Below are positions 2,571 to 34,342 of a stretch of 64,000 nt of DNA, piece by piece (the stretch's first letter is position 1; each line of letters starts with the position of its first letter). The DNA comes from Coptis chinensis. Lineage: Eukaryota > Streptophyta > Magnoliopsida > Ranunculales > Ranunculaceae. The stretch covers positions 12,497,501-12,561,500 of the forward strand of contig CM027382.1 of assembly GCA_015680905.1 (NCBI GenBank). The letters are read 5' to 3'. Made by a program: the position numbers and the translations under genes. Under the pieces are notes generated by a model. It saw nothing but the letters and a program-made list of their open reading frames with translations, made no database searches and had not been told where the DNA came from.

Positions 2571-2577
2571 AAAATTC

Positions 2578-4664: not shown

Positions 4665-4684
4665 GGGTTGTATATATGTATATA

Positions 4685-5136
4685 CTAGCTTACAGGCCCG
4701 TGCATACGCACCGATTCTTTTGAAAACATTTAGATTTTTTTTAGAAAAAGTGGGACTACCGTTTTAGTCGCTAACCTGTTTTAATTTTCTAACAAATTGT
4801 TTTAAATAAAGTTTTAATTAAGTTTTAAAAACCCGTTTTTTCAATTGGAAGAGAGATTCTGTTTTAGTAGGAGAATGATTCTTGTTTTCTCTTAATTTTC
4901 AATAGGAGAGGAATTCCCATTTTAATAGGAGAAAGATTCTCGCTTTAATTAGAAGTGTTATAATTTGTTTTAATAGGAGAAGAATTCCCGTTATAATAGG
5001 AGAGGAATTTCCGTTGTAAAAAAGAATTTTTGTTTTTCAAATAGAAAAGAAATTCCTATTTTAATAAGAGATGACGTGGAATTTTAATAGAGCTAAAAAA
5101 ATACCTCTTGTGGGAGCTTTAATATTAAGATATAGA
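4685..5136 (-). mobile_element. Non-autonomous Helitron, copy A of a tandem array
   Basis: Read on the minus strand, it starts with TCTATATCTTAATATTAAAG (the 5' TC end at 5136) and ends with a GTGC...GCAC hairpin followed by CTAG next to T (CTAG at 4685-4688). It contains degenerate internal repeats of the type 'TTTTAATAGGAGA-GATTC'. Its 5' end abuts the CTAG of copy B with no spacer. Confidence 0.7.
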
Positions 5137-6940
5137 CTAGAAAGTAAACCCATGCATACGCACCGACTCTTTTAAATACTTATTCAACAATCATAACCTA
5201 TGTTGCATGGACACGGATGTGGACACTGACGCGGACGCGGACGCAGACACGGCGACTCGGCTGTAACTCAAAAAAATAGGATGCGGACGCAAATTGGACG
5301 CGGGAATTAAATAATATATGTAATTTTATTTTATTTTAATAATTGAACATTACAATTTATAAACTAATTCATATGTATCATAAAATTCATGATTACTCAA
5401 AATAAACATCCACAAAGTTAAACAAACATATTAATATAGTATTTAATCAAACTTCTCGTAAGTCTTAACTCTTAAGTCTTAACAAAACAAAAACCAAAAT
5501 AAAACCCAGAAGGCCACAAGAAACATAGTAATTAGTAAAGAAAGAGCCCTAGAATTCCACAAGACAACATGATCAATTTTCTTCTCCCTCTTCCGCTTCT
5601 TCTCCAATTCGATTGAGCTCATCTTCAATGCTAGACTTGCGAGATTTGGGTGTTGTGTTCTGCGGACAGATAGAGAGACAAACTAGGATTAAACCCCAAG
5701 TCAAAAACATTAATCACAATAACCACTATTGTGTATTCTAATAACTATACATCTATTCTAATTTTGGTGATAGTTTCTTCAATAATCTAACAATTCTAAA
5801 TTCTCAACCATCAACAGTATAGATAATTACGTCAAAAAACACAAAGTTTATGAACTTGCAATGGGTGTTGTCAGAACACGAACTGAGAAACAGTTATAGA
5901 TAAATCTGAACACTTTAGAGCAAATTAACCTCTTATTAATCTTCACTAACAAAAATGTTTCTTTACTTGTGTAGTTGTGTTGCAAGTTAAAACCCAAAAT
6001 TAAAAGAAAAAAGAAAAAACGTACCTGAATGAACAAGGTGGTTGAAAGGCTTTAGAGAAGAATTAAACCCTCTTCTTCTTTTGCAACTTCTGTTTGAAAG
6101 GTGGTTGAAACTTGAAAGGTGTAATTGGGTTTATTTTCATTTAGCAGTTCAAGTGGATGGCGCATAATGGATTTTATTCTTTTCTGTTTTTAGTTTGAGT
6201 GTAATAAGTTCGATGATTCAAATTACACCATTTCCAAATCTCAAAATCATGCCATTTCCAGTAGAGGCGAGGTGAGAATCAGAGAATGAGGTCGTGGACT
6301 CGTGGGCTACTGGGCTTTTTCCTTTTCTTTTTTTTCTTATTTGTTTTCAAAATGTTTTGAGGTTGACCCGTGTCTTGACCTTGGTTTGACCGCGTCCCAA
6401 ACGCGTCTTGACTTGCGTCCAATGTCATTGACCGTGTCGGACACACGTCGAAACCGCGTCCATCCCCGCGTCCGCGTCCGATGCGGACACAGCCCTGTGC
6501 GTCCGTGCTTTAGAGATCATAACTATACATATATAAATTTTATAACAAATCATGATTCATGTTTTCATCGTTAACCCGTTTTAATTTCTTAAAAAAATAT
6601 TTTAATCAAGTCTTAAAAGCCCGTTTTAATTTCTCAATAAATTATTTTAATTAAGTTTTAAAAACCCATTTTTTAATTGAGAGAGGGATCCCGTTTTAAT
6701 TTAGAAGTGTGATTTCCATTTTTAATAGGAGAAGGATTCTCGTTTTAATTAGAAGTGTTAGATTTTTCTTTTTCAATAAATGAGGAATTTTCATTATAAT
6801 AGGAGAAGGATTTCCGTTTTAATTAAAAGTGTTAGATTTTTTTTTCAATAGAAAAAGAATTCTCGTTTTAATAAGAGTTGATGATGTTGAATTTTAAGAG
6901 AGCTAAAAAAATACCCATTGTGGGAGCTTTAATATTAAGA
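5137..6940 (-). mobile_element. Non-autonomous Helitron, copy B, interrupted by a hAT element
   Basis: CTAG lies at 5137-5140, followed by the family's hairpin region (CATGCATACGCACCG). The other end, AATATTAAGA, is at 6931-6940. Without the 1318-bp hAT insertion and its 8-bp duplication the copy is about 478 bp, close to copies A and C. The segment flanking the hAT (AACAATCATAACTATACAT) is found uninterrupted in copy C, which confirms the insertion boundaries. Confidence 0.7.
5198..6515. mobile_element. hAT-type non-autonomous DNA transposon, 1318 bp
   Basis: It is flanked by perfect 8-bp target duplications ATCATAAC (5190-5197 and 6516-6523), the length made by hAT transposases. The imperfect terminal inverted repeats are CTATGTTGCATGGACAC and the complement of GCGTCCGTGCTTTAGAG. 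The first and last 100 bp are rich in GACGCGGAC/GTCCGCGTC repeats, a subterminal feature. Short frames inside (6302-6574 plus, 5848-6036 minus) resemble no transposase. It is inserted in Helitron copy B. A short relative sits at 62552-62721. Confidence 0.88.
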
Positions 6941-7424
6941 CTATAAATTAGACCGTGCATACATACTTGACCGCTTTTAAAAACTTGTTCAACAATCATA
7001 ACTATACATATATAAATTTTCTAACAAACCGTGATTCATGTTTTCATCGCTAACCCATTTTAATTTCCTAACAAATTATTTTAATCAAGTCTTAAAAACC
7101 CGTTTAAATTTCTCAACAAATTATTTTAATCAAGTTTGAATAAAAACCCGTTTTTTAATTGAGGGAGGGATGCTGTTTTAATTTAGAAGTGTGATTCCCA
7201 TTTTTAATAGGAGAATGATTCTCGTTTTAATTAGAAGTGTTAGATTTTTCTTTTTCAATAGGGGAGAAATTTCCACTATAATAGGATAAAGATTCCCGTT
7301 TTAATTAAAAGTGTTAAAATTTCTTTTTTCAATAAGAGAAGAATTCCCATTTTAATAGGAGTTTATGATGTGGAATTTTAAGAGAGCTCGAAAAATACCC
7401 TTTGTGGGAGCTTTAATATTAAGA
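6941..7424 (-). mobile_element. Non-autonomous Helitron, copy C
   Basis: The same family in the same orientation: a degenerate 3' end (CTAT instead of CTAG, 6941-6944), internal GGAGA-GATTCTCG repeats, and the 5' end AATATTAAGA ending at 7424. About 484 bp. It abuts copy D directly. Confidence 0.65.
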
Positions 7425-10168: not shown

Positions 10169-13100
10169 TAGGTATACGACTCCAGGATTTTGAGTTTAGT
10201 ACTTTTCGAAATTTGTGTAGACAAGGTGTTCGATTAAATTCCGAGGTGAAACTGTTTTTTTTGGGTTATTGTGTGTAACTTGAAAGATGGCTCCCAAGAT
10301 GTCAAACGCAAGGTTTGAAGTAGAGAAGTTTAATGGGAAGAATAACTTTGGGATTTGGCAAGTCCAAGTAAAGGACATCCTCATCCAACAAGGTTTGCAC
10401 AAGGCTTTAAAGGGGATTAAATCTAAGGCGAAAGTATGAGTAATGATGATTGGGAAGAGTTCGATCTTCAGGCATGTTCATCAATCCGGTTATGTCTTGC
10501 TAATGAGGTCATGTATAGTGTGATGGGAGAAAATACTGCTGCCGGTATTTGGCTCAAACTAGAGTCTATGTATATGACCAAGAGCATGACGAACAAGATG
10601 TACCTTAAGAAGCGTCTTTATCGGTACATGATGGTCGATGGTTCAACGATGCAAGAGCACGTTAGTGAGTTCCGTCGACGTCTAGCGGATTATTTGAATG
10701 TTGGTATGAAGATGGATGATGAGGATCAAGCGGCATGTTTAATATTCTCCTTGCCAGAAAGCTATGAGCATCTAATGATGACTACATTCATGAACAGAGA
10801 AGTCGTCGATCTTGACGAAGTTCAGAGTGCACTTCTTTCTTATGAGTTGATGAAGAAGACACGTGTAGAGAATAGCATTGATGCAAGTCAGGGGCTAGTG
10901 GCAAGAGGAAATTCGTCTGAACAGAATTATTCAAGTAATGATAATTCTAGGTCCAAGTCAAAGAAGCCTTTAAAACATGTATAGTGCTACAATTGCAATG
11001 AAAAAGGACATTACGCAAGTAATTGTCCTCACCCGAAGAAAGAGAACAAGAGAGATGGTCAGAAGAAAGGTAAGGCAAAATTTGAGGCAAATTATGCTTC
11101 AGGCTCTGAAGAGGATGAGTTCGGTCTACGTGTGTCCACACAAGACTATATGACCGAGGTGGATTCTTGATTAGGATGTTCCTATCATATGTGTCCGAAT
11201 AGAAAGTGGTTTACGCCTTATGAGAGCATTGATGGTGGTTCCGTCTTTAATGGGTAATGACGCGTTGCTTGTAAGGCGGTAGGAATTGGAACTATACGGG
11301 TCAAGATGTATGATGGTGTAGTGAGGACTCTAACCGATGTGAGACATGTTCCCGAAAGCTAAAGAAAAGTCTTATTTCTCTTGGTACCTTGGATTCCAAA
11401 GGCCACAAGTTTGTGGGAGAAGGTGGAGTCCTAAATATTGTTAATGGCTCTTTAGTTGTTATGAAGGGTCAAAAATATGGAACCTTGTATACTACGATTG
11501 GTAGTACGGATGATAGCGATGTAGCGGTGGGTGCATGTAGTAATGATTCCGAGTGCACTAAGATGTGGCATACGCGTTTAGGGCATATATGAGTGAAAAG
11601 GGTTTGTCCGAGTCAGGCAAGCGATGGTTCTTGAAGAACTTGAAGAAGCAGTATGGGGTCGCGGAGCATTGCATCTATGGGAAGCAATGCAGAGTCAAGT
11701 TCAAGTCGAAACCCACTACAACAACAGGGAATCCTTGATTATGTGCATACGGATGTTTGGGGACCCTCGAGGTGGCTTCCAAGGGAGGTAACCGCTATTA
11801 TGTCTCATTCATTGATGATCATACTCGTATGTGTGGGTGTATATGATGAAATCGAAAGATGAAGTGTTTGAGACATTTAAGAAGTGGAAGCCAAGGGTTG
11901 AGAATCGCACGGATAGGAAGGTAAAGACATTACGGTCCCGACAATGGTAACCGAAAGTATACCTATGGACCTTTCCAAGAGTTCCCCAGGCGCGAATGAG
12001 GAATTGCCGCATTAATCGACCGGTCGGGCACGCCACGCCAGAATGGAATGGAATGGAGAGGATGAATAGAACTTTGCTTGAAAGAGCAAGATGTTTATTG
12101 TCTAATGCCGGTCCCAGGCAAAGAGTATTGGGCGGAATCACGGTGTCCATGGCGTGTTACTGTATTAATAGGTCACCCGATACCGACTATAGATTGCGGG
12201 ACACCTTATGAGGTGTGGTCGTAACCCACCGGTGATTATAGTATCTTGCGAGTGTTTGGATCGACGACTTACTACCATGTGAGGGGACGACCAAGCTAGA
12301 TCCTAGAGCTAAGAAGGCCATATTCTTAGAAGTTTCATAAAATGGGGTAAAGGGATACTGATTGTGGTGTCTAGAAGCCCACAAGTTCCCCGGTCGCCAG
12401 AGATGTTACCTTTGATGAGACTTCCGCGTGTTATCTTTGAAGAAGGAAGTAGGCCGGGTAAAATGGTGAGTCTATAGAAGTTCAAGCTAATGAGCTTGAG
12501 TTGTTGCGACGCAGCCAGATGGCCTGGTTAGATCATGATGAGGTACCAAATCATGGAACCACACAAAGAACAGGAAGAAGAGCAAGAGCATCCGCGAACT
12601 TGTAAAGGCCGACCCTAAGCCACAAAGACAAGTTAAAAAGTGCACAAGTATGGGCACGAAGCCGGTGAAACACTATGGTCGTGGATTTAGTGGCATATGC
12701 GACCGAATATCGAAGGTGATGAGCGGATAGCTTCAAGGAAGCCGCATTAGAGATGCTCATTTAGAGAGATTGGTTAGTAGCTATGCGCAAGCAGAGATGG
12801 AATCTCTTGATAAAAATCACACATGGGACCTAGTTTTATTGCAAAGGGCAAAAGGACTATCGGCGAAGAAATGGGTGTTCGTAAAAAGAAAGAGGTCCTT
12901 CCCGAACCGAAAAAGATCTTGGGTACAAGACAAGAGTGGTAGCAAAGGGTTTTTCACAGAAGGAAGGAGTTGACTACAATGAGGTATTTTCCCCGGTGGT
13001 CAAACATACGTCCATTCGTGTGTTATTAAGTTTAGTTGCTCACTTCAACTGGGAGTTAGAGCAACTTGATGTGAAAACTGCTTTCTTGCATGGGGACTTG

Positions 13101-14435
13101 GGACGAAGAGATCTATATGAGACAACTGAAGGGTTTGTCGTTCTTGAAAGAAGATTATGTATGCAAATTGAATCGGTCACTGTACGGGTTAAAGCAATCG
13201 CCCAGGCAATGGTACAAGCGCTTTGACACATTCATGATGCAACATGAGTACACCCGAAGTAAGTATGACTGCTGTGTCTACTTTAGAAGGCTTCGTGGTA
13301 ATGACTTCATCTATCTCCGCTTTATGTGGATGACATGCTTATTGCTTCCAAAAGCATGGTGGAGATAGACAAGTTGAAATCTCAACTTAGCTCACGAGTT
13401 TGAGATGAAAGACTTAGGTGGAGCCAAGAATATCTTGGGCATGGAGATTGACAGAGATAGGAAGAAGCGGCGGATAGTTGTATCTCGAAGAAATACATTC
13501 AGAAAGTAATTTTCGATTTGGTATGGAGAATGCAAAGTCGGTTTCTACACCTTTAGTTTGGGCATTTCAGGGCTTTCACCTAAGTTCTCTCCTAGTTCGA
13601 TTGGAGGAACAAAAGCATATGGCAAATGTTCCTTATGCAAGTGCGGGTGGGGCGGTTTGATGTATGCTATGGTGTGCACACGCCCGGACATTTCCACAGG
13701 CGATTAGTGTTGTCGGTAGGTATATGGCAAATCACGGGAAGCGGCATTGGGGAGGCGATGAAATGGGTACTAAGGTACTTGAAGCGGTACCTTGGATGTG
13801 GGATTAGTTTATGGTGGAGGCACTTATTATGTCGGTGGGTTTGTGGATTCCGATTATGCAGGGTGATCTAGATAGGCGACGATCGACCATCGGTTATGTG
13901 TTTACGATGCATGGGTGCGCGGTTAGTTGGAGGTCTATCTTCTGGCTACTTCTATCTATCTACTCTTGAAGGCGAGTATATGGCGATTGGCGAGAGGCGT
14001 GAAAGAGGCATTATGGCCAGCGGTCTTCTAGATGATTTGGATATTGAAAGCGAAAGCGATATTGCTTTTTATTGTGATAGTCGAGTGCTATTCATTTGGC
14101 GAAGAACCAAGTTCATCATGGTCGGACCAAGCATATTGATGTCCGTTATCACTTTATACGGGGGATGTCGTTGAGGATGGTGATGTTGCACTTGAGAAAG
14201 TAGACACCCATGACAATCCTGGCGATATCTTCGGCGAAAGTTGTCACCGGAGTTAAGTTCCAACCTTTGTTTGGACTTGCTCCAAATCCTACATGTTTGA
14301 AAGAGCGGTGTGGGCATAGCCCTTCAGGCGATTGATCGCGAAGTCTTCCTTCTTTGGAGGTGTTTCCTTGGATGTGATCTTCTTTGGATGTGTTCGGCTT
14401 GGTTTTATGTGTTAAAACCTCACCGAGGTGGAGAA

Positions 14436-15102: not shown

Positions 15103-16847
15103 ATTGACTCACTGCTTCTGATCGCAGTTCTCAATTGGGCCACAAACATAACATCATACGTGCTTTGGGAACTGGTGACATTCCTGATAAACGTGTTGAA
15201 GGAGAGACCAATCGTGAATGCGCTAGATGGTTTGACAGCCATAATGTCCATAGGCACTACTTTCCTCAACATTCTCATCTCAGCATTGCTTTACATTGCA
15301 GTAAGTTCTTAACTTCTGAGAATTTCAGAAAACTTTTGAACTGCAAGAATGAAAAGGGGGGAGAATAATCGATTTCTGATTCTGCAGCTGCTTATGTTTT
15401 TTTCAGATCTATTTATGAACTTCCAAACCAGTGCAGAAACAATAGATGAAAAATCACTTATAAGTGCGCCTCACCTAATACCCACTTCATTCATAATTGT
15501 CTTGTTTCACTGCAGGGATTGGAACTCATAACAATGTCAGTTCCTCCGAGCTTTTCAAAGGTACTAGGAACATGTCATGAGAAGGACACTGCATGCATTG
15601 GCGAGGTACATCACTCTCTATTTTATGTGGCAGTACTTGCGATAGCAGTGGGAAGAGCTGGCTGTGAAAATTCGCTACCAACCTTTTGGAATCAACAGTT
15701 AAATGACCCTATCAATCAGCAGATTAGCTATGAAAAGCACTGCACAAGTGTAGAATGTATAAATATCAGCTTATGGCTATACGTGTTAGGCACTTACATA
15801 CTTTCTTCCATCAAGTCATGGACCACTACTTTTGAAATTCTTATTGTAGTAATGGCAATTGCAACTATCATCATCTTATGTGGAACCCTTTCCTACATAC
15901 ATTTAAAACCATGTGGGAGTGCGCTCACATGCGTGGTTCATGTTTTTGTGGCTGCAACATTAAAGAGACATCACCAGTGCCCTTCTAATACTAGTCAACT
16001 GCATAACCCGGAAGCTGTGGAGCTCCCGCTGCCTAACACTAACCAACTAAGGTTCTTGGAAAAAGCTTCCATTATCGTCTTACAGGGTGTAAATGACAAA
16101 GAAAGCAAGTGGAGACTTTGCACTGTCACAGAAGTAGAGGAAACTAAGCTTCTCTTAGGCATGTTTCCCATGTGCACAACATTCCTCATGTCTGGAGTAG
16201 TACTCTCAGTTGGAAACACTTACTTTCTTGAGCAAGGCAACAGCATGGAAAGTAAGCTAGGAAAGATACAGATTCCTATCCTGAGCTTTCTTCTCCTCTT
16301 TGAAGTTTCAAGAGTTGTAACCACAAAAATATATAGCCTAACACTGAGTAGTTGCACTCGACTTGATGAAACATGTTTGTCTAAGCTGAGACTAGGGGTG
16401 GGGATGCTTCTCTCTGTTAACTGTTGTGTTGTGGCTGCACTGGTAGAGACTAAAAGATTAAATGTTATCAGTAGCAATGGACTACTACACGAACCAGGAG
16501 CTACAGTCCCCATGAGTATGTTCTGGTTAACACCACAGTTTCTCTTACTGGGAGCAACGGATGGACTTGTGAAGGATGGAGTCAGACAATTGTCCCAACT
16601 CAATGAAGACATACGCAGAACCATTCGCCAACACAACGATTGGAGTAGGGACCATTCTAAGTATACTTGTTGTGACCATTTCAAATAAAGCTAGCAAGAT
16701 TGGAAGAAGACATGGTTGGTTTGCAGCTAACCTGAACCAAAGTCGCCTCGATTATTTTTATGGACATTAGCATGTTTGAGCCTTGTCAACTTGGGTTTCT
16801 ACTTTTTCATGTCAAATAGGTTCACACCCAAGAGAGAAACAGAGTAG
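15103..16847 (+). CDS. NPF (NRT1/PTR family) transporter, C-terminal two exons; frame broken near the end
   Basis: NPF proteins are 12-helix proton-coupled transporters of nitrate, peptides or hormones. Two exons are visible. Exon 15103-15300 is preceded by ACAG and followed by GTAAGT, and encodes a hydrophobic helix pair starting IDSLLLIAVLNWATNITSYV. Exon 15516-16847 is preceded by TGCAG and is joined in phase. The second exon holds the central loop typical of the family (CGSALTCVVHVFVAATLKRH, then VNDKESKWRLCTVTEVEETK) and C-terminal helices (FWLTPQFLLLGATDGLVKDG). The frame shifts near 16590, where the conserved continuation (SMKTYAEPFANTTIGVGTIL) lies in another frame, and again near 16765 before FTPKRETE and the stop at 16845. 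The family's G-G-KP/FGADQFD signature is poorly kept. The copia element lies about 50 bp before the first exon, and any N-terminal exon was not found. Either a recent pseudogene or a gene with base-level assembly errors. Confidence 0.75.
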
Positions 16848-17704: not shown

Positions 17705-19623
17705 TCACCAATAATCCATGCACGAACATAAACCATTCTCAAAATGGTGGAAGCGGCTCCTGTCCCTGACAACAATTCTACGGTCATAAGCTTTTGAAAT
17801 AATCTTTACTGCGGCATGACAATCCCGACAAATGCGGAGGTTCTTCACTATTCGCAATGGTGTTTTATGACTAGTACTGATTAGGCCAAAAGCAATTGCT
17901 ATCTTCTCACTATGATGATACAGAGTACTTTCTTTCTCTCTGTCATCCATGTTTAGCAAAACATTTCTCGTATCCGGTCTGTGGCCAGCCAACCTCAACT
18001 TGTCAACTATCTCCTCCAACATTAGATGGATCTCTTCAGCTCTTGGATTTGAATCGTCTTCTACAAGAAATTCATTAATCATTCCATCAAGTTCAATCCA
18101 ACTACATCCAGGGTCTTTCCTGATGTTGAGCTCCTTCATTCGCATCCTAGTTTCAGCAACAGAACCCCAGTCGCCTAAAGAGTACATATTTGATAGAGCT
18201 ACATAGCCTCCACTATCACGAGGAGCTAACTCCATAAGGTTCTCAGCGTCGTTTTTCCCATTTCAATATGGCCATGCAATTTACAAGCACCAAGCAAGGC
18301 TTTCCATATCACGTCATCAGGCTTAATGGTCATGCTCAATATAAGCTTCTCAGCCTCTTCAAGTAGCCCAGCACGACCAAACAGATCAACCAGGCACCCA
18401 TAGTGCTCAATTCTAGGTTTTAACCCAACCACTCTAACCATTTGGTCGAAGTAAAACTTGCCCAAATCCACCAACCCTGCATGACTACATGCGGCCAGCA
18501 CACTGATGTAAGAAACATCACTAGGCTTTACTCCTGATTTTTCCATCTTGGAAAAGTAATCAAGTGCATCCTTAGCACGACCATGCATAGCAAGCCCTCC
18601 GATAATAGCATTCCAAGTGATTACATTAGTCTGTGGAAGCCTCTGGAATACCTGAACCGCCTTCTCGATGCTCCCACATTTCGAGTACATATCAACTAAA
18701 GCAGACCCAAGCACATCATCCAACTTAATATCATTTCTCTCTGCATACACATGCACCCATTTACCAACTCAACTTTGGCCAAAGCGTGATATCGCAGGCA
18801 AAACACTAACTAAAGTCACATAATTCGGACACTCATTCCCCAACTGCATCTCGCGAAAAATCTCCACAGCCTCCTTAAAAAACCCATTTTGCGCGTACCC
18901 AGCTATCATAGCATTCCAAGACACCACACTTCTTTCAGGCATCAAATCAAACAGTTTTCTCGCCGACTCGAACTCCCCATTTCTCAAATACCCATCAATC
19001 AAAACATTCCAAATCACATTCCCATCTCTAACAACACATTTTCCAAACAACCGCCTCGCGTCATCCATAACCCCACACACACTATAAACTCTAACCAAAT
19101 TACTAACAACAAACTCATCACAATTCAACTCACCCCCACATTTTATAATCTGTCCATGAACTTGTTTCCCTTCTTCTATCCCTCTTATCTCAACACACGC
19201 TTTTAAAACAGACGGGTACGTAAATCTATTCGGTTCAACAAACTCACTACAAACCATTTCACTAAACAAAACCACAGCTTCTAAACACTGGTTTTCACTT
19301 TCTGAATAAGCTCTTATTATAGTGTTCCATGAAAAACAATTTGGGTTGTCCATTTTATTGAAAACTAAACGAGCGTAGTCTAGATTTCTATGGTCAGACA
19401 ATGCACATAATCTTAATATCTCTGCGGAGATAAATGGGTCGTGAAAACGACCCGTTTTGATAGTTTTTGCATGGACTTGAATTAAGTGTTGCATGTTTTT
19501 GCAGGTTTTGATTTCAGTTAGTAGTAACGAGTTTGTAGTAAGTGTCACCATTTTGGCGGTTAATACCGTTAACAGTTTGCATGGGTTCATATAGATTGAA
19601 AAATGCTGCGATATTTGCGGCAT
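17705..19623 (-). CDS. LPA66: DYW-type pentatricopeptide repeat protein, LPA66-like plastid RNA editing factor
   Basis: An intronless PLS-type PPR gene. It reads in order: PPR motifs (CFSWNTIIRAYSES, VSWNAMIAGYAQNG, ALVDMYSKCG, ITWNAIIGGLAMHG, IEHYGCLVDLFGRAG), an E/E+ region (DVIWKALLGACKLHGHIEMG, DPGCSWIELDG), and a complete DYW cytidine-deaminase-like domain (HSEKIAIAFGLI, LRICRDCHAAVKIISK, ending CSCMDYW). Motif order and wording closely follow Arabidopsis At5g48910 (LPA66), which is needed for editing of plastid psbF RNA. Total length of about 640 codons matches. There are two breaks: an in-frame TGA at about 18769-18771, where the homolog reads LELG, and a one-base shift near 18240 after HIEMGKTT. 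The start may be the ATG at 19623 or the one at 19590 (MNP). Everything else is conserved, so sequencing error or very recent inactivation are both possible. It lies about 100 bp downstream of the PILS gene on the same strand. Confidence 0.9.
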
Positions 19624-19724
19624 TTTGTAATATCTCGTGATAGTTTAGAATGTCGGTATAATTAGCGTGCTGATATTTGGTGAAACATTCTGATAAAATA
19701 CAAGCAATTCCATGGGCAAATTTG

Positions 19725-21525: not shown

Positions 21526-24500
21526 TTCTCCACCTCGATGAGGCTTTAACACATAAAACCGAGCCGAACACATCCATCTAGAACTCGCAGTCAACCGCTC
21601 CGAAGGGCCATGCCCACAAATGGCTCTTTCAAGCATGTAGGATTTGGAGCAAGTCCAAACAGTGTTGGAACTTAACTCCGGTGACAACTTTTGTCAGCAT
21701 ATAAGCAGGATTGTCATGGGTGTCCACTTTCTCAAGTGCTACATCGCCATCCTCAATGACATCCCGTATAAAGTGATAACGAACATCAATATGCTTGGTC
21801 CGAGCATGATGAACCTGGTTCTTCGCCAAATGAATAGCACTCTGACTATCACAATACAAAGCAACAATGTTCTGCTCAATACCCATATCATCCAGAAGGC
21901 CTCGAAGCCATAGTGTCTCTTTCACTGCTTCTGCCCCTGCCATATACTCTGCATCAGTAGTAGATAGAGCAACTGTAGCATATAGCATAGACCTCTAACT
22001 AACCGGTGCACCATGCATCATAAACACATAACCAGTAGTCGATCGTCGTCTATCTAGATCACCTACATAATCTGAATCCACATACCCACTGACATAACAA
22101 GTGTCTCCACCATAAACTAATCTCACATCCAAGGTACTCTTCAAGTACCTCGCATCCCATTTCATTTGCTTCCCAATCTTTGCTTCCGATTTGTCATATA
22201 CCCCGCACAACATTAAGCGCGTGAAATGTGGGTGTGCCACACCATAACATACATCAAACTGCCCACGGTACTTGTATAAGGAACATTTGTCATATGTTTT
22301 TGTTCCTCCACCGAACTAGGAGAGAACTTAGCTGAAAATCTAAAATGCTCAGCTAAAGGTGTAGAAACCGACTTTGCATTCTTTATACTAAAATGAGAAA
22401 TTACTTTCTGAAGGTATTTCTTCTGAGATACAACTATCCGTCGCTTCTTCCTATCTCTGTCAATCTCCATGGTTAATATCTTCTTGGCTCCACCTAAGTC
22501 TTTCATCTCAAACTCAGTGCTAAGTTGAGATGTCAACTTGTCTATCTCCACCATGCTTTTGGAAGCAATAAGCATGTCATCCACATAAAGCAGGAGATAG
22601 ATGAAGTCATTACCGAAGCTTCTGAAAGTAAACACAACAGTCATACTTACTTCGGGTGTACTCATGTTGCATCATGAATGTGTCAAAGTGCTTGTACCAT
22701 TGCCTTGGCGATTACTTTAACCCATACAGTGATCGATTCAATTTGCATACATGATCTTCTTTTTTCAAGAACAACAAACCCTTCGGGGTTGTCTCATATA
22801 GATCTCTTCCTCCAAGTCCCCATGCAAAGCGGTTTTCACATATAGATCTCTAACTCCAAGTCGAAGTGAGCAACTAAACTTCGATAATAACACACTAATG
22901 GAAGTATGTTTGACCACCCAAGAAAATACCTCATTGTCAGTCGACTCCTTCCTTACGCGGAGAAACCCTTTGCTACCATTCTTGCCTTGTACCTAGTAAT
23001 CGTCGGACTCATGAAGGACCTCTTTCTTTCTAAACACTCATTTTTCGCCAATAGTCTTTTGCCCTCCCGCAATAAAACTAGGTCCCATGTGTGATTTTTA
23101 TCAAGAGACTCCATCTCTTTTTGCAAAGCAACCAACCAATATCTGTAATGAGCATCTCTAACAGCTTCCTTGAAGCTATCTGGCTTATCATCTTCGATAT
23201 TCAGTGCATACGCCACTAAATCTACCTGACCATAGTGTTTCACCAGTTTCTTGTGCCCATACTTATGCACTTCTTTAACTTGTCTCTTCTTCCTGTTGTT
23301 GTGTGGTTCCATAATTTGGTACCTCATCATGAACCAACCAGTCATCTGCTGCATCAGACAACTCAAGCTCAGTGGCTTTAACTTCTATAGATTCACCATT
23401 TTGCTCAGCTCCTTCTGGCTTATTGAAAGATAACACGGAAGTCTCATCAAAAGTAATATCTCTGCTGACCAGGAACTTGTGGTTTTCTTGACACCACAAT
23501 CTGTATCCCTTTACCCCATTTGCGAAGCCTAAGAATATGACTTTCTTAGCTCTAGGATCTAGCTTGTTCTCCCTCACATGATAGTAAGCGGTCGATCCAA
23601 ATACTCACAAAATACTATAATCATTTGGGTTGCGACCACACCTCATAAGGTGTCTTGCAATCTATAAATTTGAACCGGTGACCTATTATACGGTAACACG
23701 CCATGGACCTTTGCATCTTTAATACTCTTTGCATAGGCGGCATTAGACAACAAACATCTAAGCTCTTTCAAGCAAGTTTCTATTCATCATCTCTGCCATT
23801 CCATTCTGGCGCCCCCTTTTGGTCATCTAGTGTCGACAATTCTCATTACGCACAAAACTCTTGGAAAGGCCCATATGTATACTCAGTACCATTGTCAGAC
23901 CTTAGTGTCTAGACCTTCCTATCTGTGCAATTCTCAACCCTTGCCTTCCACTTCTTAAATGGCTCAAACACTTCATCTTTCATTTTCATCATATACACCC
24001 ACACATAGCGAGTATGATCATAAATGAATGAGATATAATATCGGTTACCTCCTTTAGAAGCCACTCTGGAGGGTCCCCAAACATCCGTATGCACATAGTC
24101 AAGAATGCCTGTTATTGTGTGCTTGCTTGACTTGAGCTTGACTCTGCACTGCTTCCCATAGACGTAATGCTCACAGAATCCCATACTTGGCTTCTTCAAG
24201 TCCTTCAAGAACCCTCGCTTGCACAACTCAGACGAACCCTTTTCACTCATATGCACTAGTCGCATATGCCACATCTTAGTGCACTCAAAATCATCACTGC
24301 ATGCACCCACTGCTGCATCGCCTATTACCCATCAAAGTATACAAGGTTCCATGTCTTTGTCCCTTCATAACAGTTAAAGAGTCATTGACAATCTTTAGGA
24401 CTCTACCTTCGCCCACAAACTTGTGGCCTTTGGAATCCAAGGTATCAAGAGAAATAAGGTTTTTCTTTAGCTCATGAACATGTCTCACATTAGTTAAAGT

Positions 24501-25681
24501 CTTCACTACACCATCATGCATCTTGACCCGTATAGTTCCAATTCCTACCGTCTTACAAGCAACGTTATTACCGATCAAAACGAAACCACCATCAATGCTC
24601 TCATAAGAAGTAAACCACTTTCTATTCGGGCACATATGGTAGGAACATCCGGAATCAAGAATTCACCTTTCGGCCATATATAGTTTTGTGTGGACACACA
24701 GAGACTCAACTATTCCCCTTCAGAGCTTGAAGCATAACTTGCCTCAATTTTTGCCTCACCTTTCTTCTTAACATCTCTCTTGTTCTCTTTCTTCGGGTGA
24801 GGACAATTACTTGTGTAATATCCATTTTCATCGCAATTGTAGCACTTCACATGTGTCAAAGGCTTCTTTGACTTGGACCTAGACTTCTCATTCCTTGTAG
24901 AAGCCTTTCCATGCGACCTTCCTCTTGCCACTAGCCCCTGACCTACATCATTGCTATTCTCTACACGTGTTTTCTTCATCAACTCATAAGAAAGAAGTGC
25001 ACTATGAACTTCATCAAGATCAACATCTTCTCTGTTCATAAATGTAGTCATTAGATGCTCATAGCTTTCGAGCAAAGAGGATATTAAACATGCCGCTTAA
25101 TCCTCATCATCCATCTTCATGCCAACATTCAAATAATCTGCTAGGCATCGACGAAACTCACTAACGTGCTCTTGTATCGTTGAACTATCCACCATCATGT
25201 ACCGATAAAGATGCTTCTTAAGGTACATCTTGTTCGTCATGCTCTTGGTCATATACATAGACTCTAGCTTGAGCCAAATACCGGCAACAGTATTTTCTCC
25301 TATCACACTATACATGACCTCATTAGCAAGACACAACCGGATTGATGAACAAGCCTGTAAATCGAACTCTTCCCAATCATCATCACTCATACTCGCCGTC
25401 TTTGCTTGTCTCCCCTTTAAGACCTTATGCAAACCTTGTTGGATGAGGATGTCTTTTACTTGGATTATCTAAATCCCAAAGTTATTCTTCCCATTAAACT
25501 TCTTTACTTCAAACTTAGCATTTGACATCTTGGGAGCCATTTTTCAAGTTACACACAATAACTCAAAAAATAATTTCACTTCGAAATTTTATCGAACACA
25601 TTGTCTACACAAATTTCGAGCACTATGGTTCTTTACCAAAACTCAAAATCCTAGGTCGTATACCTACACTCTGATACCAAT

Positions 25682-26289: not shown

Positions 26290-26750
26290 AATTTAAAAAA
26301 GAAAATAAAATGCTGAAAGGAAAAATATTAGTTAATTACAAAATAAGGAGAATCTCAATAGTTTAGCATAATCCTCCACTTACAAAACCTAGTGTAAATA
26401 GGCACATTCAAGGACAAAATGAACCACAAAACTCAATTCGGTGCAGTAGCCAAATCTGTTAAAAACTTGGGGGTTGTAAATCCTTACATATTAGGAAATT
26501 CGTAACTAAAACACACCAGAGTCGACCCAAGTATTAATATCAACAATAGGATGCTAACTCAATCGAATTTTAAGTTTCAGTACTTGTGCAATATGTACAT
26601 TGGAAACATTTTCTTTTTATCCTTCTACCCTAAGATATGAGTTTATCTACTAGGTGACATGAAAATAAAATTGATGGTGAACAACATTTTATATAACCAA
26701 CACACAAGCAACAGAAATAAATGGAGATTAGAAAAACCTTCCCACTACAC
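26290..26750. other. PILS intron sequence
   Basis: AT-rich with no frame or element recognised; lies between copia copy 2 and the PILS exon at 26751-26987. Confidence 0.6.
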
Positions 26751-26987
26751 TTTATGGGAATCAATCTTTGGGCCGGTATGGACAAGCGATGCATGCGATA
26801 CTGGGGGATTGAGCAAGTGTGCGGTGGAAGAAATGCTTTCAAGCAGACTCTCCAAGCATAACTTTGAGGTTTGCCCAGGAAAGTTCTCATCATCCGAGCT
26901 GACAATTACTTCATCCTGTCTCCTGCTAGTAATTGCAGATATGCGCACAATGTTGTATATGTAAGTCCACAAATATGTAGCACCAAT
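26751..26987 (-). pseudogene. PILS exon (IGATYLWTYIYNIVRIS...)
   Basis: Preceded by CTTCTTCAG. It encodes the end of a membrane helix, then a variable hydrophilic loop (SSDDENFPGQTSK...). The likely donor is AAA|GTGTAG at 26751; otherwise a stop follows. Confidence 0.85.
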
Positions 26988-27026
26988 CTGAAGAAGTACG
27001 TAAAAACACAGAGCAAATTCAACCCT

Positions 27027-27470
27027 CACTATAAGAAAGCTGACTTTTAGCCACGGACCAAAACTGTGGGTAAAGGGCTTTAGCCACAGCTATCGGCTGT
27101 CGCAAGTCCGTGGGGTTTTGACCTGTCGGGAAAATATTAGCTACAGCGAATGACCGTGGGTAATTGCGACGGTCCACACAACAGCTCAAACCGTAGGAAC
27201 TTGCCACTGCGAATGACCGTGGCAAACGCCGTCGCAAGTGCCATAGATAATGACCGTGGGAATAGTCGTAGCAACTACCACAGCTCTCGACCGTGGCATA
27301 AGCCGTGGCAAGTTCCATAGATAATAATCGTGGCATAATCCGTTGCAATTATTTTTGTGAGAGATAAAAGTTGTGGTATAATCTGTGGTAAAAGTACATC
27401 TGCCACACACATCTTTTTGCGTTATCTACGGACATTGGCCGTGGCTAAAACGTTTTAGAATTAAAAAAAA
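27027..27470. repeat. CACTA left subterminal repeat region
   Basis: At least nine copies of a CCGTGG-type motif (GACCGTGGCA, GACCGTGGGA, GCCGTGGCAA, GCCACGGACC and variants) occur in about 400 bp, for example near 27050, 27103, 27149, 27220, 27251, 27290, 27304, 27328 and 27437. Confidence 0.85.
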
Positions 27471-27483
27471 ACAAAAATTAAAA

Positions 27484-27489
<6 letters not shown>

Positions 27490-27564
<75 letters not shown>
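27490..27564. repeat. A-rich tract and (TA)n microsatellite inside the CACTA element
   Basis: An A-rich tract passes into about 74 bp of TA repeat. Confidence 0.95.
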
Positions 27565-27565
<1 letters not shown>

Positions 27566-27854
27566 TAGTTTTATCCACTTTTGCCTTTCAATCCAACTAA
27601 TAATCCATCCATCCTAATAACAATATTACAAAGAAGCCACATTCCCAATCAAAATTCCTTTGCTGAATAATAGATAAAGAGATGAATATTCATACAAGTA
27701 AAAAAAAAAAAAAAAAAAATCTGTAACATTTATTACCACAAGCTCAATATAATATGAATTTTCAAATATTTTTCAATATATTTCATCACCCCGTACAAAT
27801 AATAATGCCTTAGTTCACCTCGTGCATGTTTCTCCGTACAACTTTATATCAACC

Positions 27855-30800
27855 TTTATATGTCAGTAAATGCTCCCATCTCATGAAGCTTCTTGCAAGC
27901 AGCCAAACAAACAGCCTACACAATGAACACATATAAAGGGTGATACTTTTTCGTATATTACGAAGATCTCTAAAAACAAATTGATTAGATTTGACACCAT
28001 ATCAACATGCCTGTTGTGCTAAGCGATTGAAGCGCATCACAGGGACCCACAAGCTTTTCGAATGGTGCGTTGCAAAGGGAGTTGAAGCTTACATGAGTAT
28101 ACTGTGGAACCCCGGCTTTTCATGTCTTTCCATAATAAACTTCGGGGACGAAGGATAGAATACCTTGTAAGGGATGCAGAAAAATAGAGTTACAACAACA
28201 AGTTCAGCGATAGTCATCAATCTAAGCTCTCGAGAAAAACAAAGATTTGTATTCACTATTACGAAATTGAAAGCACACCTGTCACTAGGTAGTTGAGAAC
28301 AATAAAAGTGGAGGAGACCCATTGCAGAATTTAAGCTTACAATTGCCCCGATTGACTTCACGGTACCTGGATGAACCGGTGTTGTATCCACTTGAAGTTA
28401 GCCTTGAAGTACCTTTAAGATGGCTAAGGTCAGTTCTTACTATTGCATCCTGTCTTAAAGTTGACTCACTATTCCGTGCATTTTGTAGAAAGGTTTCATC
28501 AGACAACTTTCCTTTGGAAATAACATGAAAAGAACGGTCGGGTCAATTACTTTTTTTATTTTATTTTTCATTTTCTTTTAAGAAAACTTCATTGCCTTTA
28601 AGAGGCGTGAAGTACAACAAACAATAATAGAGAAACTAACTAAAGTTGAGGTGGACATAACAATTGCCTTTCCACCCGCCCCGTGCACGCAGTGAGAGGC
28701 GGTCAATCGAGTAACTCATGTACATAACAAAGACAAGGTACATATGGGCCTAAGACAATGCAAACATCTTCTCAACATAGCGTAAGCGTCAACCTACAAT
28801 GAGGTCTTTGAGCGTCAACCCTTTCCATGTATCACTTATCACCGACCAATACGACAAGCGGGCCTGATTTCAACCTCAACTCCATCATAATGTGGCATTG
28901 GTGACATTTACTTCAAAACTATAGGCGAATAACTGTAGCATAAATGGAAAGTTAACAAGTAAGTGCTAGTACGATTGGATACATGATAATACCTCTCAAC
29001 CATCAATATGTAATCAGACCCCGACATCCTTGCACGGCTCCTGGACTATATATAGGCCAAGAAAGTCTTTGCAAAGGTCAAAGCGAATGACAACATTGCA
29101 TTGCACGATATCCGGGCCTTCTTCGCAACACTTTCGTAGCTACAAGTAAAGTCACCTGTAATCCCCGCAATGGCGAAAGAGGAAAAATCCCTTTAGTAAT
29201 GGAAGAACAAAAGTAGTATTTTATTACAAAATTAAGGAATCCACTGCTTCTAAAACTCAAGCGTCCATCGCGAAATTTGGCTAATGAGTCTTGCATTTGG
29301 GATGCCCGCATTTCGACTATTGTTGTGTCCAATTAAACTCGCACACTTGATGAAATTCAAAGGCGGAAGCTCATAAAAAAACCTGCTTAATAGGCGAAAG
29401 AAATAAATCGTGGTATGAAAACTTGTAGCGGGGAGGATTCCAAGGAAACAAGAATAATAAATTAGAATTGGTGAAATTTCACAAGTCGGGAAGTGAAATT
29501 TTTACCTTCGGAAGAACGAGGCAACAACTACTCTCTCCACAAAAGACAATTGCACGGAAATCTTCCATTTGTTGATACTTGAGAAGTATTTTTATCAATG
29601 ACTGCACTTTCGGGGTCACCTTTCCATCGCCTCAGCTGCTCCTATTACCACATCCACATGCTCTCCACGAAACAACTATGTAAAGCAAAAGCATGTCAAA
29701 ATATGAAGAACAAAAAGATCAAATCACCCATGAAAATTATACATATTAGGGGAATAACGATCTAATAATGTTTAAGTCGAGACATGAGAAACAGCTACCA
29801 AGTGAGATTCTTTGATTGTGCTTATTTGCTTAGTGCAAAGCAATTAGTAAAAATATTCTGGCAAATCATTAATTAGTTGAGTGTAAACTATACATGATTC
29901 ACAAGCCTTTTATACCTCGTATTATATGTATCACTAGAATATCCTCACTATTTACTATGATAACGAAATCAAATCAACACTACAACAAAATAGAAGGGGA
30001 GAAACAACACTAAAAGTTGCATCAAGCATCAACAAACAACACCCCAGAACTTAATTACTAGTAGACAAAATCTTGTTTTCAAATTTGGTTCATCAAGTAA
30101 TCTTATAATGCAGTTAAACACCAATTACAAACTTATTTTTTCAATTATGGACAATATACAATTTGCAGGACGATTTGAGAAATGAATAACATGGACTTGT
30201 GTTATTACCAGATTGAACTGGAGCATGCACCATAACCAATACAAACTATATTAGTAAATATAAATAAGGACCGGCAAGCAAGCCTCACCATGACTGTCAG
30301 GTAGCTCGCCTTCCTCAATCTCATCAACAACACCATCCCTTTGATCAATGCCATTCTCCACTTATATATGATTCACGTCTTTACCGAGACGGCTCCCTCG
30401 ACATAGTGGCATTGTAGTAAAGATACAACTTTCTTTAAGTATGATTCACGAAACTTGGCATCAATTTGGTAGTTTGCCCTTTCATCGTTTTGTAAGGCTG
30501 TCTAAAAATGAGTGTGCAACCTAGCACACACACACACACACAGATCTTGAGAAATCACTCTTAGAATAGTTCATATTGAGACATTTAACAATAAAGAATC
30601 AAGTGTCCCTAGGATGCGATAAAGCACCTTGACCAGTTCACTTAAAGCATAGTTTATGGCTCGGTTTTTGAATTAGATTAGCAGCTCCGTCACTTTACGT
30701 TCTTTCGAAACACCATAAACAAAGGCGTAGCTCTTCTTTAGATCAAACATCTCTATCCCCATAAATTGCCATTTACTTCTTCTAGAACTCAATTGTGCGG

Positions 30801-31010
30801 CTTCTTCAACTTCCTTTTCCATTTGTTTTAACTGTTCGATGCGGGGACCACAAACTAGCTGCTTTGTCATATTCAACCACAACCGGAAGGCGTTGGAATA
30901 TGCTTCTCCATTTCTTTCACGATCTTTTTTGTACAAACAATAGAATCTAATTTACTTTCAAGATTCGAATCTTTATAGCACAATCCTCTTGGCTAGAAAC
31001 ACTGTTGGAG
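27855..31010 (-). pseudogene. DCL1: Captured fragment of DICER-LIKE 1 (helicase C domain to Dicer-dimerisation region)
   Basis: Collinear minus-strand blocks match DCL1, which makes plant microRNAs. Around 31005-30960 is DCAIKIR...KLDSIVCT. At 30673-30860 is IKQME-like LKQMEKEVEEAAQLSSRRSK, then WQFMG and VYGVSKER. Near 30300-30360 is VDEIEEGELPDSHG. Near 29510-29690 is KVTPKVQSLIKILLKYQQ and FRAIVFVERVV. Near 29240-29380 are ELPPLNFIKCASLIGHNNS and MRASQMQDSLAKFRDGR. Near 29000-29150 are VTLLVATKV and QCNVVIRFDL, with IQSR(x)RAR and GSDYILMVER. Near 28290-28510 is FLQNARNSESTLRQDA then TDLSHLKGTSRL. Near 28090-28350 are GAIVSLNSAMGLLHFYCSQLP and MERHEKPG. Near 27855-27905 is AVCLAACKKLHEMGAFTD. 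This covers the helicase C-terminal motifs into DUF283; no RNase III, PAZ or DEAD motifs are present. Introns are kept (for example TGTAG before GCTGTTTGTTTGGC), so capture was from DNA. Frames are broken. Confidence 0.93.
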
Positions 31011-31719
31011 ACAGAACCCGCACGAACCATAAGCTCCACACATATCTCAATTACGGCGGTAAAGAGATTAACCCGGATAAGACAAAACACATATCGCAAC
31101 CATAAATATAAGGAAGTTAAGCCATAATGCCGATTAGAAATTTCTGAAAGTATAAGTTCGTTACTAACCTTAACTCTATTTCCTCTTTTATGTAAATACT
31201 AGGGTATGCCCGTGCCTACCTGATGGCGTCGGCGTGCACTTGGCGCTACCTCGGCATTTCGACGAGCCTTCTGATCGATCTACGATATACTGGATATAAT
31301 AAATATAAAAATGACAAAAGCAAATAACAGAATTTATGTACCATAGGGAACTAGAAAACATTTTAGAAGGTAGTATTCCACCACTAACATCGATGAAGAG
31401 AACGTCATGGCAAAAGTTGTTGTAGCACTTGAGACCTGCAATTAGACCCTCACATTAAGTCTAGCAAACATAAGTAAACACGTAACTGCAATCATTTATT
31501 GATTTATTTTATGAACAACAAGTTGGTTTTTACGAAGGGTCAACAATTTTATTTCCTGGATGTGCACTGAACTGACGAGAACATCTTGAGATGGTGATAG
31601 GGTGATCTATTCTCCCAAACCCAGAAAATATAGATATTGGATGTGCACTGAACCTAGAAAAGCATCTGAAGTTAACCTAGGCTGCTTAAACAGAGTCACA
31701 CAATAGTAGCATATCTTAC

Positions 31720-33225
31720 GACCTCTTGATCTCCATTAGTATTTGTCTCCTTGTGAGTACCGTTGCTTGGGCCACGGTAAGGCCTTGTATTCTACTTCTT
31801 CGTTACCTTATTAAGCGAGGAAGGGATGCTAACTATCAAGTTGAAGTACAAGAAGCGAAGTGGCGATTATGAAATCTTGATGCTATCGATACGCCGAAGA
31901 AAGCATCTTGGCGTACCATTTGACTCAATCGTTTAGCGGCTTCACGAAATCAAGGAAGAAACAACTAATTCAGTGGGAGGAAAGAATTGGTTTAAAATGG
32001 ATTAGAACTCCACAGTAGATGAATGAAGGTTCAAATTACCTTCTTTAAAATAGTTTCTTTTTTCCATGTCTCTACACCTTTAAAGAATGCCTTAGTTGAT
32101 GTGCCTGGAGAATCACTAAATAACTAAAGGATGCTTTCCAACTCCAGAAAATGGCAAGGAGAAAATCAAATCAAGAAATTTCTTACCTATGAAAAGGATA
32201 ATCAGGAGAACCGTGACCATCCAATCGGCAAAAACCACATTAAAAGCAACTCCTATCTTGATCCCAAGCATAAGCATTGGTTGGAAGAGCAATGCCAAGT
32301 TATAGTCAATAATCGACAATTCAAGTGTTGGATGCCTTAGCTTAAGATTGTAATATCACAGTTGAGCCGGCTGCACCCATGATCATACACGAACAAAGCG
32401 GAATCCATAAGTTACGTAGGTCTCTTGTAACAATTAACGACATGAGTTTTCCAAAGGGAAATAAAAAGTTTATTCATTGTTATAACTTGAATCATATCCT
32501 AATTCCCAAGTTCAAAAATGCAATCAAATGTTATAGTCAATCACTTTCGAGAACTGGGTCAAGTCGGGTAAATGTGCTCCAACGCAACCATGAAAGTCAA
32601 TGAGTTAATAGGAACTTCGTCAAAGCCGAGAACCCGGCGAAGGAATTTCTGCCTAGAGATTTCGCAACTTATGTATCGGCTCCAAAAAACACTAATCTAT
32701 CGAAGCGACTAACTATTGCCACTACCAATTAATCATAAAATCTAAATAAGTCAAAACAAACACTATGACTTATTTAGCGGTTTGCAACAAACAAATGGTA
32801 TGACTAATAAGATCACTTACATTTAGAAATCGCGGTTGAAGATTTGGATCAAACCCAATAATAAGAGTAAGCATAGGAACAAAAATCCACCACCACCAAC
32901 TCCTCCTACACTCCCAAACACTGCCCCACAAAATCCAACTATCGAACCAACCACAATCTTCTAACTAAATGTCAACTCCTGTAGAGTCAAATTTTATTTA
33001 ACATTTACTCAACACAAGCAAAAAAATATAATAAACTAGTAAAAAACACTTCTTGGCCAAACATGTTGATAACCCGGTCGATCGAGCACGCCATAAGAAA
33101 TTTACAACATTGAGAAAATAATCCTTCTTCTCAGCGACTTGTTTTGAATCCTCAAAATGTTTCAAACTTCTTCTTTCAATTTGAACCAAGAAAAGCATTT
33201 GCAAGAAACAAGAATGCAATATTTA
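31720..33225 (-). pseudogene. Captured fragment of a sulfite exporter TauE/SafE family gene
   Basis: Collinear minus-strand blocks match plant TauE/SafE membrane proteins. Around 33220-33060 are SLKHFEDSKQVAEKKDYFLN, VVNFLW and GYQHVWP. Around 32960-32860 are KIVVGSIVGFCGAVFGSVGG and VGGGG with MLTLIIGFDP. Around 32385-32160 are [38 protein letters not shown] and [20 protein letters not shown]. Near 31930-31890 is EAAKRL. Near 31810-31720 are EEVEYKALP and GPSNGTHKET. Together these represent the N-terminal half of the protein (the first membrane helices with the glycine-rich VGGVGGGG signature); the second half is absent. Introns are retained and the frame is broken in places. The fragment is upstream of the DCL1 fragment in the same orientation, inside the same CACTA element. 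Confidence 0.9.
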
Positions 33226-33229
33226 CTAC

Positions 33230-34000
33230 TTGATCTTATTCCCTCCATATTGCCCCCACGTTCAGCCATTCCACACTTTGAGAGTTTCTAAGTATATAAG
33301 ATTTATTATAACTGTGAAATGAAGATGTTGCAGAACTATCCTCAACATCTGCTGAAATCAGTGGACATTTAGTCTAACTTAAAAGCCCAACTTAAAAAAA
33401 ATACTAACTTTAATCTAACGTACGTCAAATATCAAACTACAACTTCAATCAGTTTGTTGGTGGTACGTACAACGCACTTAATTCCAAAGTGAAAATCGTA
33501 TGTAAGTTGAGATGGAAAAGAGGAGTTTTGATTACCGATAGTTTGAAGATAAAGTTGAAGGCAATGAAGACCAAGAGTTTGATTTTGTGTATAGTCGGGG
33601 CGTCCTTTGTGTGTAATGACAATAAAAGGAACACCAATTACTCAATTTCCATCCAAAACAAAAAAAAAGCAAACTTTTAATAAACTAAAAACTTAAAAAT
33701 ATACCTTTAAGCTTTACTTTGGTGTTTGATGAGAGAGATGTGAGAGAACCGATAATAGTAATGAACTGTAAAGGGAAGAAGATGAGAGAGATGGTGAGAG
33801 AGGCGATTTTTTTTTTTTTTTTTTTGCTACAAAGGCGGTGGAAGCTAGAGGTGGTGAGATTAGTTCCAACTTCTCTGTGGTATCTAATTTTTGTGGGAGG
33901 GAAATTTTGGTGCTCCGCTCCCAAAACTTTGGAGCAATGTTGGATCTATACCGAGGAAAGATAACCATGGGTGAAAACATACTGTGCCAAGATCTGATCC
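33230..34000. other. CACTA interior of unknown origin
   Basis: No family recognised. Open frames on both strands (33449-33637 minus, 33489-33680 plus, 33714-34055 minus) are short. It could be further TauE/SafE 5' sequence or original transposon DNA. Confidence 0.35.
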
Positions 34001-34187
34001 AACGGTCGAAGCTGTGGGAACACCCACGCGCTGTTACCGTCGCAAAAGGTTGCAAAATAGTGTCACGCCCTGCTACGGCAACTATAACTATGTCAACAGC
34101 TGGTGACCGTGGCTAATAATTTTACAGCTTTGGTCTGTGGCTAATGCTCCGGGCCATCCGTGGCTAAAGCCCATTTTTCTTGTAGTG
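34000..34187. repeat. CACTA right subterminal repeats and terminus
   Basis: GCTGTGGGA, GACCGTGGCT, GTCTGTGGCT and ATCCGTGGCT lie in the last 180 bp, before the inverted end TTTTTCTTGTAGTG. Confidence 0.85.
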
Positions 34188-34342
34188 CCTACATAGTTAG
34201 GTTCATCCAACTTCCATAAGTATCTAATAAATTTCCAAAAGTAAGAAAACAATTTATGCAGTCCTCATAGGATCCTAACATATGAACAGAGTGGGCAGAA
34301 AATCATGGGAAGTCGATCAGGTTGCCCTAAAGGTTTTCATCT

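Follow-up and report, generated by a model that had tools for sequence, protein, structure and literature searches.

The window analysed here, a stretch of 64,000 nucleotides from the 935.6-Mb Coptis chinensis assembly (C6:12497501-12561500), contains at positions 27027-34187 a non-autonomous CACTA (En/Spm) transposon of the Pack-CACTA type, with intact ends, in which parts of two unrelated host genes, the transporter gene TauE/SafE and the gene of the small-RNA enzyme DICER-LIKE 1 (DCL1), are carried side by side. The best explanation, to which a probability of about 0.87 is given as a whole, would be the serial capture of host genes at the DNA level by an En/Spm family that has been active in Coptis chinensis until recently, in which the captured pieces now travel as silent passengers.

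The element, its cargo and the donor genes

The element begins with CACTATAAGAAAG (27027) and finishes with ...TTTTTCTTGTAGTG (34187), and its terminal inverted repeats, CACTATAAGAAAG and CACTACAAGAAAA at opposite ends, both start with CACTA. The trinucleotide CCT stands on either side as a 3-bp target-site duplication, and subterminal repeats of 20-22 nt are present at both ends. A sequence-only reading of this DNA, which had proposed a non-autonomous CACTA element with intact termini, a 3-bp duplication and subterminal repeats, is borne out in each of these respects; the possibility that the two ends belong to different elements was also checked, and both ends were found to travel together in a copy on C21. 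No counterpart of the transposase block common to relatives on C7 and C3 is present in the window element. Host gene fragments lie within the ends shared with these relatives, with the DCL1 donor on C6 and the TauE donor on C3, as is characteristic of the Pack-CACTA type. There were no Rfam matches at gathering level in the window and, the AT run aside, no inverted matches longer than 60 bp between the window element and its copies; inverted repeat pairs within the window were considered for 25 of 125. Pfam analysis of ten short open reading frames (ORFs) of the window gave a single match below threshold, to Dicer_dimer (14.9 bits, cut-off 23.7).

Both captured pieces are read on the minus strand, TauE/SafE followed by DCL1 from high to low coordinates, and translated searches with mosaics of pieces returned both genes. 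The DCL1 mosaic matched 7eld ('Endoribonuclease Dicer homolog 1'), which we take to be Arabidopsis DCL1, with 327 bits against 87.5 for the next sequence, and plant DCL1s with up to 370 bits, whereas the TauE/SafE mosaic matched the Coptis chinensis proteins P0094 and P0095 at 84-85%. At the DNA level, the 3.18-kb DCL1 segment is collinear with an intact gene on C6 (94.1% including introns; see table), and the TauE blocks 31293-31640, 31652-32655 and 32713-33334 match at 93-95% an intact gene at C3:85292896-85295654, along which P0094 reads. Expressed in coordinates of the donor gene extracted from C3, the TauE capture (~2.0 kb) extends from 897 to 3655, that is from 63 bp before the ATG to ~57 bp past the splice donor of the tenth exon, and lacks positions 2510-3299 (790 bp) in all three copies known to carry both cargoes, hereafter double-cargo copies. 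Codons ~252-371 are consequently absent, and ~1-251 plus ~372-402 of 477 are retained. The description of this piece as the N-terminal half of TauE/SafE was therefore right in identity and close in extent but incomplete. The other claims, namely an internal part of DCL1, a collinear arrangement in a single orientation, introns kept in both pieces and capture in two or more events, are upheld by comparison with the intact genes on C6 and C3 and with the sister copies, the blocks being neither missing from nor out of order in either donor. Both captures evidently took place at the DNA level, as judged from these alignments.

Other DCL1 sequences were also found in the genome. A partial 3' copy at C8:79157907-79161060 begins at donor position 4685, and the captured piece ends at 4682; this remnant may be the other half of a broken donor or a coincidence. 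Eight further matches (about residues 1272-1460 of a Vitis protein, 45-87%) run uninterrupted where the C6 match splits into exons and are possible retrocopies.

Table. Features of the window element and of related sequences elsewhere in the assembly
Feature	Position	Strand	Basis
Target-site duplication, left copy (CCT)	27024..27026		Window sequence
Terminal and subterminal part of the CACTA element, 3' relative to the transposase; starts CACTATAAGAAAG; subterminal repeats, AT run	27027..27837	-	Common to relatives with TauE, DCL1 or neither
Junction stretch from element end to DCL1; diverged relative to DCL1-free relatives	27838..27859		Junction comparison
Captured DCL1: ~38 bp of intron with 3' splice site, seven exons, start of the eighth, introns	27860..31041	-	94.1% to C6:98766846-98770027
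Filler of 253 bp; middle of the TauE-DCL1 hybrid intron	31040..31292	-	Also beside TauE in DCL1-free relatives
Last captured TauE/SafE exon, splice donor in phase 1, and adjoining intron	31293..31640	-	Donor alignment
Site of the 790-bp internal TauE deletion	31641..31651		Common to the three double-cargo copies
Captured TauE/SafE 5' part: 63 bp before the start codon, exons 1-6 and introns	31652..33334	-	Donor alignment
Stretch of 57 bp without donor counterpart, inside the TauE 5' part	32656..32712	-	Donor alignment
Terminal and subterminal part of the CACTA element, 5' relative to the transposase; ends CTTGTAGTG	33381..34187	-	Common with relatives
Target-site duplication, right copy (CCT)	34188..34190		Window sequence
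ORC1 segment in the C7 relative	C7:21134107-21137390		98% to C13 stretch (C13:225300-229100)
Extra DCL1 matches	C4:77231229, C8:49818357, C7:21826093, C2:84221237, C5:76233638, C5:80025316, C6:35362330, C5:76229032		

Relatives of the element and the probable order of assembly

Searches of the genome recovered two further composites as well as relatives with TauE, with DCL1 and with neither. The whole composite is repeated at C21:267816-274900 (query 1-7161, 93%) between ACA and ACA, and nearly the whole of it at C4:25364796-25371282 between AAA and AAA. Identical 3-bp flanks were observed for nine of the ten members with both ends assigned. Six relatives of 14.9-18.9 kb have common ends and long mutual blocks, and one of them, on C8 at 68.6 Mb, contains neither TauE nor DCL1. 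Pfam analysis of the C7 relative and one C3 relative revealed in the former a single frame of 778 amino acids with Transposase_21 (PF02992, 282.8 bits), DUF4218 and Transpos_assoc, and DUF4216 in the DCL1-bearing C3 relative; the C7 transposase block is common to other long relatives. Taking all copy numbers as lower bounds, and with the donors excluded and the window included, DCL1 segments occur in at least 10 places and TauE segments (at least 91% identity) in at least 18. The DCL1 places include the three double-cargo copies and five others compared in detail. Four of these five continue into longer elements, of which two lie on C3, one on C8 and one, of 9.4 kb, on C6.

A third captured host gene, the origin-of-replication gene ORC1, is present in the C7 relative, where a mosaic of pieces matches ORC1 structures with 105.6 bits. 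The ORC1 segment (at least 1.9 kb) was found at at least six places, with a TauE segment within ~6 kb of each, and its likely donor is the stretch on C13, because the match continues there into a further exon, presumably also of ORC1. In the C3 relative, ~3.5 kb between transposase and DCL1, mostly common to other DCL1-bearing relatives, perhaps represent another captured gene. A rearranged derivative was also noted at C8:5849265-5851551 and C4:97913804-97916080, with a piece of the other element end on the wrong side of DCL1 and the same order in both.

The breakpoints of the two cargoes recur from copy to copy. The TauE start at 897 is common to all three double-cargo copies, and the TauE end at 3655 is found in five of eight copies, the window and C21 copies being 7-8 bp short and one copy holding only an 82-bp piece; the DCL1 end at 4682 is likewise found in five of eight, with two more within 9 bp and one without that end. 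In the DCL1-free TauE relatives, ...GAGATATGT is followed by 0.4-0.9 kb of different sequence and only then by the common end, whereas the double-cargo copies switch to DCL1 exactly after ...GAGATATGT, with a 2-bp overlap. At the other junction, DCL1 halts at ...TTTACTGACAT and is followed by the common 833-bp end. In a tree of this common end (13 rows, a C9 row of 247 bases having been dropped as too short), a fork with 98/98 support parts four TauE-bearing, DCL1-free elements from nine others, which include the element without TauE or DCL1.

Divergence was compared outside CNG/CG motifs. Differences fixed in the three double-cargo copies amount to 24/1517 in TauE versus 10/2192 in DCL1 (p = 0.0006), and the same copies differ from their donors by 2.0-2.4% in TauE and 1.3-1.5% in DCL1 (1.1-1.5% for DCL1 across eight copies). 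Distances between copies for TauE (from block alignments, the deletion kept out) and DCL1 are 1.25% and 1.39% for window and C21, 1.38% and 1.69% for window and C4, and 0.79% and 1.46% for C21 and C4, respectively. As the junctions, the one supported fork and the divergence all fit this order, TauE was probably captured before DCL1. The raw divergence of 6-7% was rejected as a measure of age, the changes being concentrated at CNG/CG motifs; since DCL1 is only 1.1-1.5% away from its donor outside them, the captures would be recent, roughly ~1.0-1.2 (TauE) and 0.55-0.75 (DCL1) million years old at 1e-8, a rate which, according to part of the text of the genome paper, was used there for long terminal repeats of Coptis chinensis (PMC8172641).

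The proposed assembly starts with the TauE/SafE stretch delimited above, which became internal to the family, a step visible in the copies themselves. Two nearby elements flanking DCL1 would then have fused with loss of their facing ends, as the junctions, the fork and the divergence suggest, and the product would have consisted of a TauE-bearing left part and the 833-bp right end enclosing 3.18 kb of DCL1. Fusion of neighbouring elements with complementary end deletions is the model summarised for Pack-CACTA elements in a section of PMC13317346. Descendants of this hybrid without transposase would have kept both pieces (window, C21 and C4), and in another branch TauE would have been lost and DCL1 kept, the structures on both branches being observed and their derivation proposed. 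The shared ends and several insertion sites suggest that the family transposase would act in trans to mobilise the copies.

A possible but rather unlikely alternative to element fusion is capture by copying, in which repair of an excision break would have switched template to DCL1 and back. Short overlaps and diverged stretches are typical of template-switch repair, and the 2-bp overlap at one junction and the diverged 22 bp at the other are of this kind; the DCL1 exons on C6 are, in addition, open across the captured part. The hybrid nevertheless lacks the 0.4-0.9 kb present between the breakpoints in DCL1-free TauE copies, as complementary end deletions predict. It is less probable still that the DCL1 piece was cut from a second DCL1 copy of which the C8 sequence is the remnant. 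Although the two breakpoints, 4685 and 4682, fall 3 bp apart within a gene of ~10 kb, the 3.1 kb beside the remnant show no similarity to the eleven elements compared, and no 5' part of DCL1 was found on C8 among the matches listed. The captured segment moreover has 7/2447 fixed masked differences from the C6 gene and the remnant 5/285, a weak comparison as different parts of the gene are involved.

Probable miscalls at motifs and the fate of the cargo

Much of the apparent decay of the cargo is confined to particular motifs. In the eight DCL1 copies, substitutions reach 14.6% near CNG/CG versus 1.3% away from them, deletions 3.4% versus 0.24% and insertions 1.9% versus 0.3%. Altered copy-sites number 436/702 for CTG/CAG, 63/172 for CCG/CGG and 92/406 for CG, to be compared with control words at 34/619 (GAT/ATC), 88/1103 (CTT/AAG), 69/561 (CTC/GAG), 68/499 (GTC/GAC) and 141/734 (GCA/TGC, which can overlap CAG/CTG). 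Within CTG, changes from T to C are seen, for example 13/16 at CCTGG, and this is not what deamination would give. The transposase blocks show a similar trend, with 28-35% of CTG/CAG different and 5-9% of GAT/ATC. According to part of the genome paper, the assembly was made from R9.4 Nanopore reads called with Albacore and polished with Illumina reads (PMC8172641), and for native DNA, in bacterial data, errors of such base callers have been described at CCAGG/CCTGG, motifs that carry 5-methylcytosine (PMC6591954). The element copies thus appear to be cytosine-methylated, with resulting miscalls that would be beyond the reach of short-read polishing, and the error signature suggests that the cargo is silenced. 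Most of the apparent decay is probably an artefact, arising where base calling failed at methylated CNG/CG; the element itself is probably of younger age and in better condition than the raw letters imply.

Lesions persist in each double-cargo copy, since not all frameshifts and nonsense changes sit near motifs. Exon frameshifts do so in 28/33 cases for the window copy, 22/24 for C21 and 18/21 for C4, and nonsense changes in 5/7, 1/3 and 1/3, respectively. Singleton changes in DCL1, with motifs masked, amount to 15/349, 17/362 and 15/371 at codon positions 1, 2 and 3 and to 61/1365 in introns (4.3, 4.7, 4.0 and 4.5%). The DCL1 cargo drifts, with no protein-level constraint visible, which is evidence rather than proof, as any remaining sequencing error would have a similar effect.

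The composite could nonetheless be read as a gene. The last captured TauE exon ends in CCCTATG before GTACAG; in DCL1, CAACAG precedes the first captured exon, which begins with GTGTTTCT. Donor and acceptor are both in phase 1, joining PYG to VSSQ, so the two sets of exons could be spliced in phase, the shared stop notwithstanding. In the window copy a G is missing at the DCL1 acceptor and, the site being a CAG, this may be a miscall. That an expressed chimeric gene exists, transcribed from the 33.4-34.2 kb end and spliced in phase to join the TauE membrane part to the DCL1 helicase part, is judged very unlikely. It would have in its favour the TauE upstream sequence and ATG just within the element end, the equal phases, and the C4 copy, which is deposited as a 449-amino-acid TauE-DCL1 protein (P0095 / IFM89_018159) annotated as sulfite exporter TauE/SafE. 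TauE exon 2 nevertheless holds a stop common to all three double-cargo copies, and the seven codons concerned are absent from the deposited IFM89_018159 model; frameshifts and nonsense changes distant from motifs remain (5+2 in the window, 2+2 in C21, 3+2 in C4), and the DCL1 codon positions are without constraint. The composite, on the strength of these features, looks like a silent passenger and not like a working new gene. Retention of the DCL1 piece as a small-RNA source or as a decoy against host DCL1, helping the family to escape control, is hardly to be expected; the miR162 site, which we take to lie at the LDAEVLS codons, falls outside the captured segment.

Some observations weigh against the explanation of a recently active family with serially captured, silent cargo. 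The flanks of the tenth member with both ends assigned, on C8, differ from each other (ACT/ATG), the far end of this member having been identified from a 65% match. On C9, two ends separated by 33 kb, which were left out of the member count, are flanked by ATA and TAT. The 833-bp right end is diverged over its inner 22 bp, which makes the exact parent uncertain, only one of ten inner branches of the common-end tree is well supported, and the C4 row of that tree has just 443 bases. Within the C7 copy, ORC1 carries only a weak motif signature (18/505 near versus 22/2016 away), and methylation or miscalling is therefore uneven. Fixed differences in TauE number 3/656 in exons versus 21/861 in introns, which constraint acting on the donor gene would explain in part; the copy itself may also have been constrained early on. 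Finally, part of the genome paper describes its gene models as evidence-based (PMC8172641), so the C4 chimera may be transcribed.

Known systems, neighbouring features and significance

That gene-carrying CACTA elements are known in plants, as the sequence-only reading had stated, is confirmed for several genes at once by Tgm-Express1, a soybean CACTA element whose five fragments of unrelated genes are spliced into chimeric transcripts (PMC1947982). Tgm-Express1 resembles the Coptis element in holding several host gene fragments with exon/intron structure kept and in its potential for chimeric splicing. It differs in the genes concerned and in that chimeric transcripts have been shown in soybean, whereas splicing is here predicted from sequence. 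A further difference is that, in Coptis, sister copies and relatives with transposase reveal the steps by which the element was built. The En/Spm-type Tpn1 family of Ipomoea nil is said to capture host gene segments, a likeness by description and not by sequence comparison. Rice CACTA elements reportedly carry miR820 against DRM2 and are alike in that the sequence they hold is connected with silencing by the host; a microRNA acts there, whereas the Coptis window is without an Rfam match at gathering level. For Arabidopsis Pack-CACTA elements, mobilisation was reportedly described by Catoni et al. 2019, whereas in Coptis it is deduced. These elements also consist of CACTA ends around host DNA, and a two-element hybrid, as outlined in part of PMC13317346, would explain the Coptis junctions. 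Among the literature matches listed (open-licence papers), none describes a CACTA element with DCL1 or the present family in Coptis; the main text of PMC8903248 names neither Coptis nor Dicer, and the accessible part of the genome paper does not name CACTA (PMC8172641). The composite is a well-resolved further case of gene-collecting CACTA elements such as Tgm-Express1 and Pack-CACTA.

Elsewhere in the window, an ORF at 26748-27026 (minus), left of the element, was read by eye as a PILS auxin-carrier exon, which raised the question of whether the element had inserted into a host-gene intron; this reading was rejected, as protein, Pfam and PDB searches gave no support. Copia-type remnants lie in opposite orientation at 10427-13223 (Retrotran_gag_2) and 21632-25468 (RVT_2 and Pol_BBD), with gag frames alike by eye. 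A PPR gene at 17708-19644 (-) is split by frame breaks, which may be base-call errors, and a POT-family transporter frame occupies 15450-16685 (+).

Taken together, the donors, one-cargo relatives, transposase-bearing relatives and finished double-cargo element, present in one genome at low divergence, provide an unusually complete record of composite-gene building by a cut-and-paste transposon, and the deposited 'sulfite exporter' IFM89_018159 is accounted for as transposon cargo fused to DCL1. They also call for caution, as the frame decay of transposons in Nanopore-based plant assemblies can be mostly miscalls at methylated CNG/CG; conversely, such miscalls may mark silenced copies.

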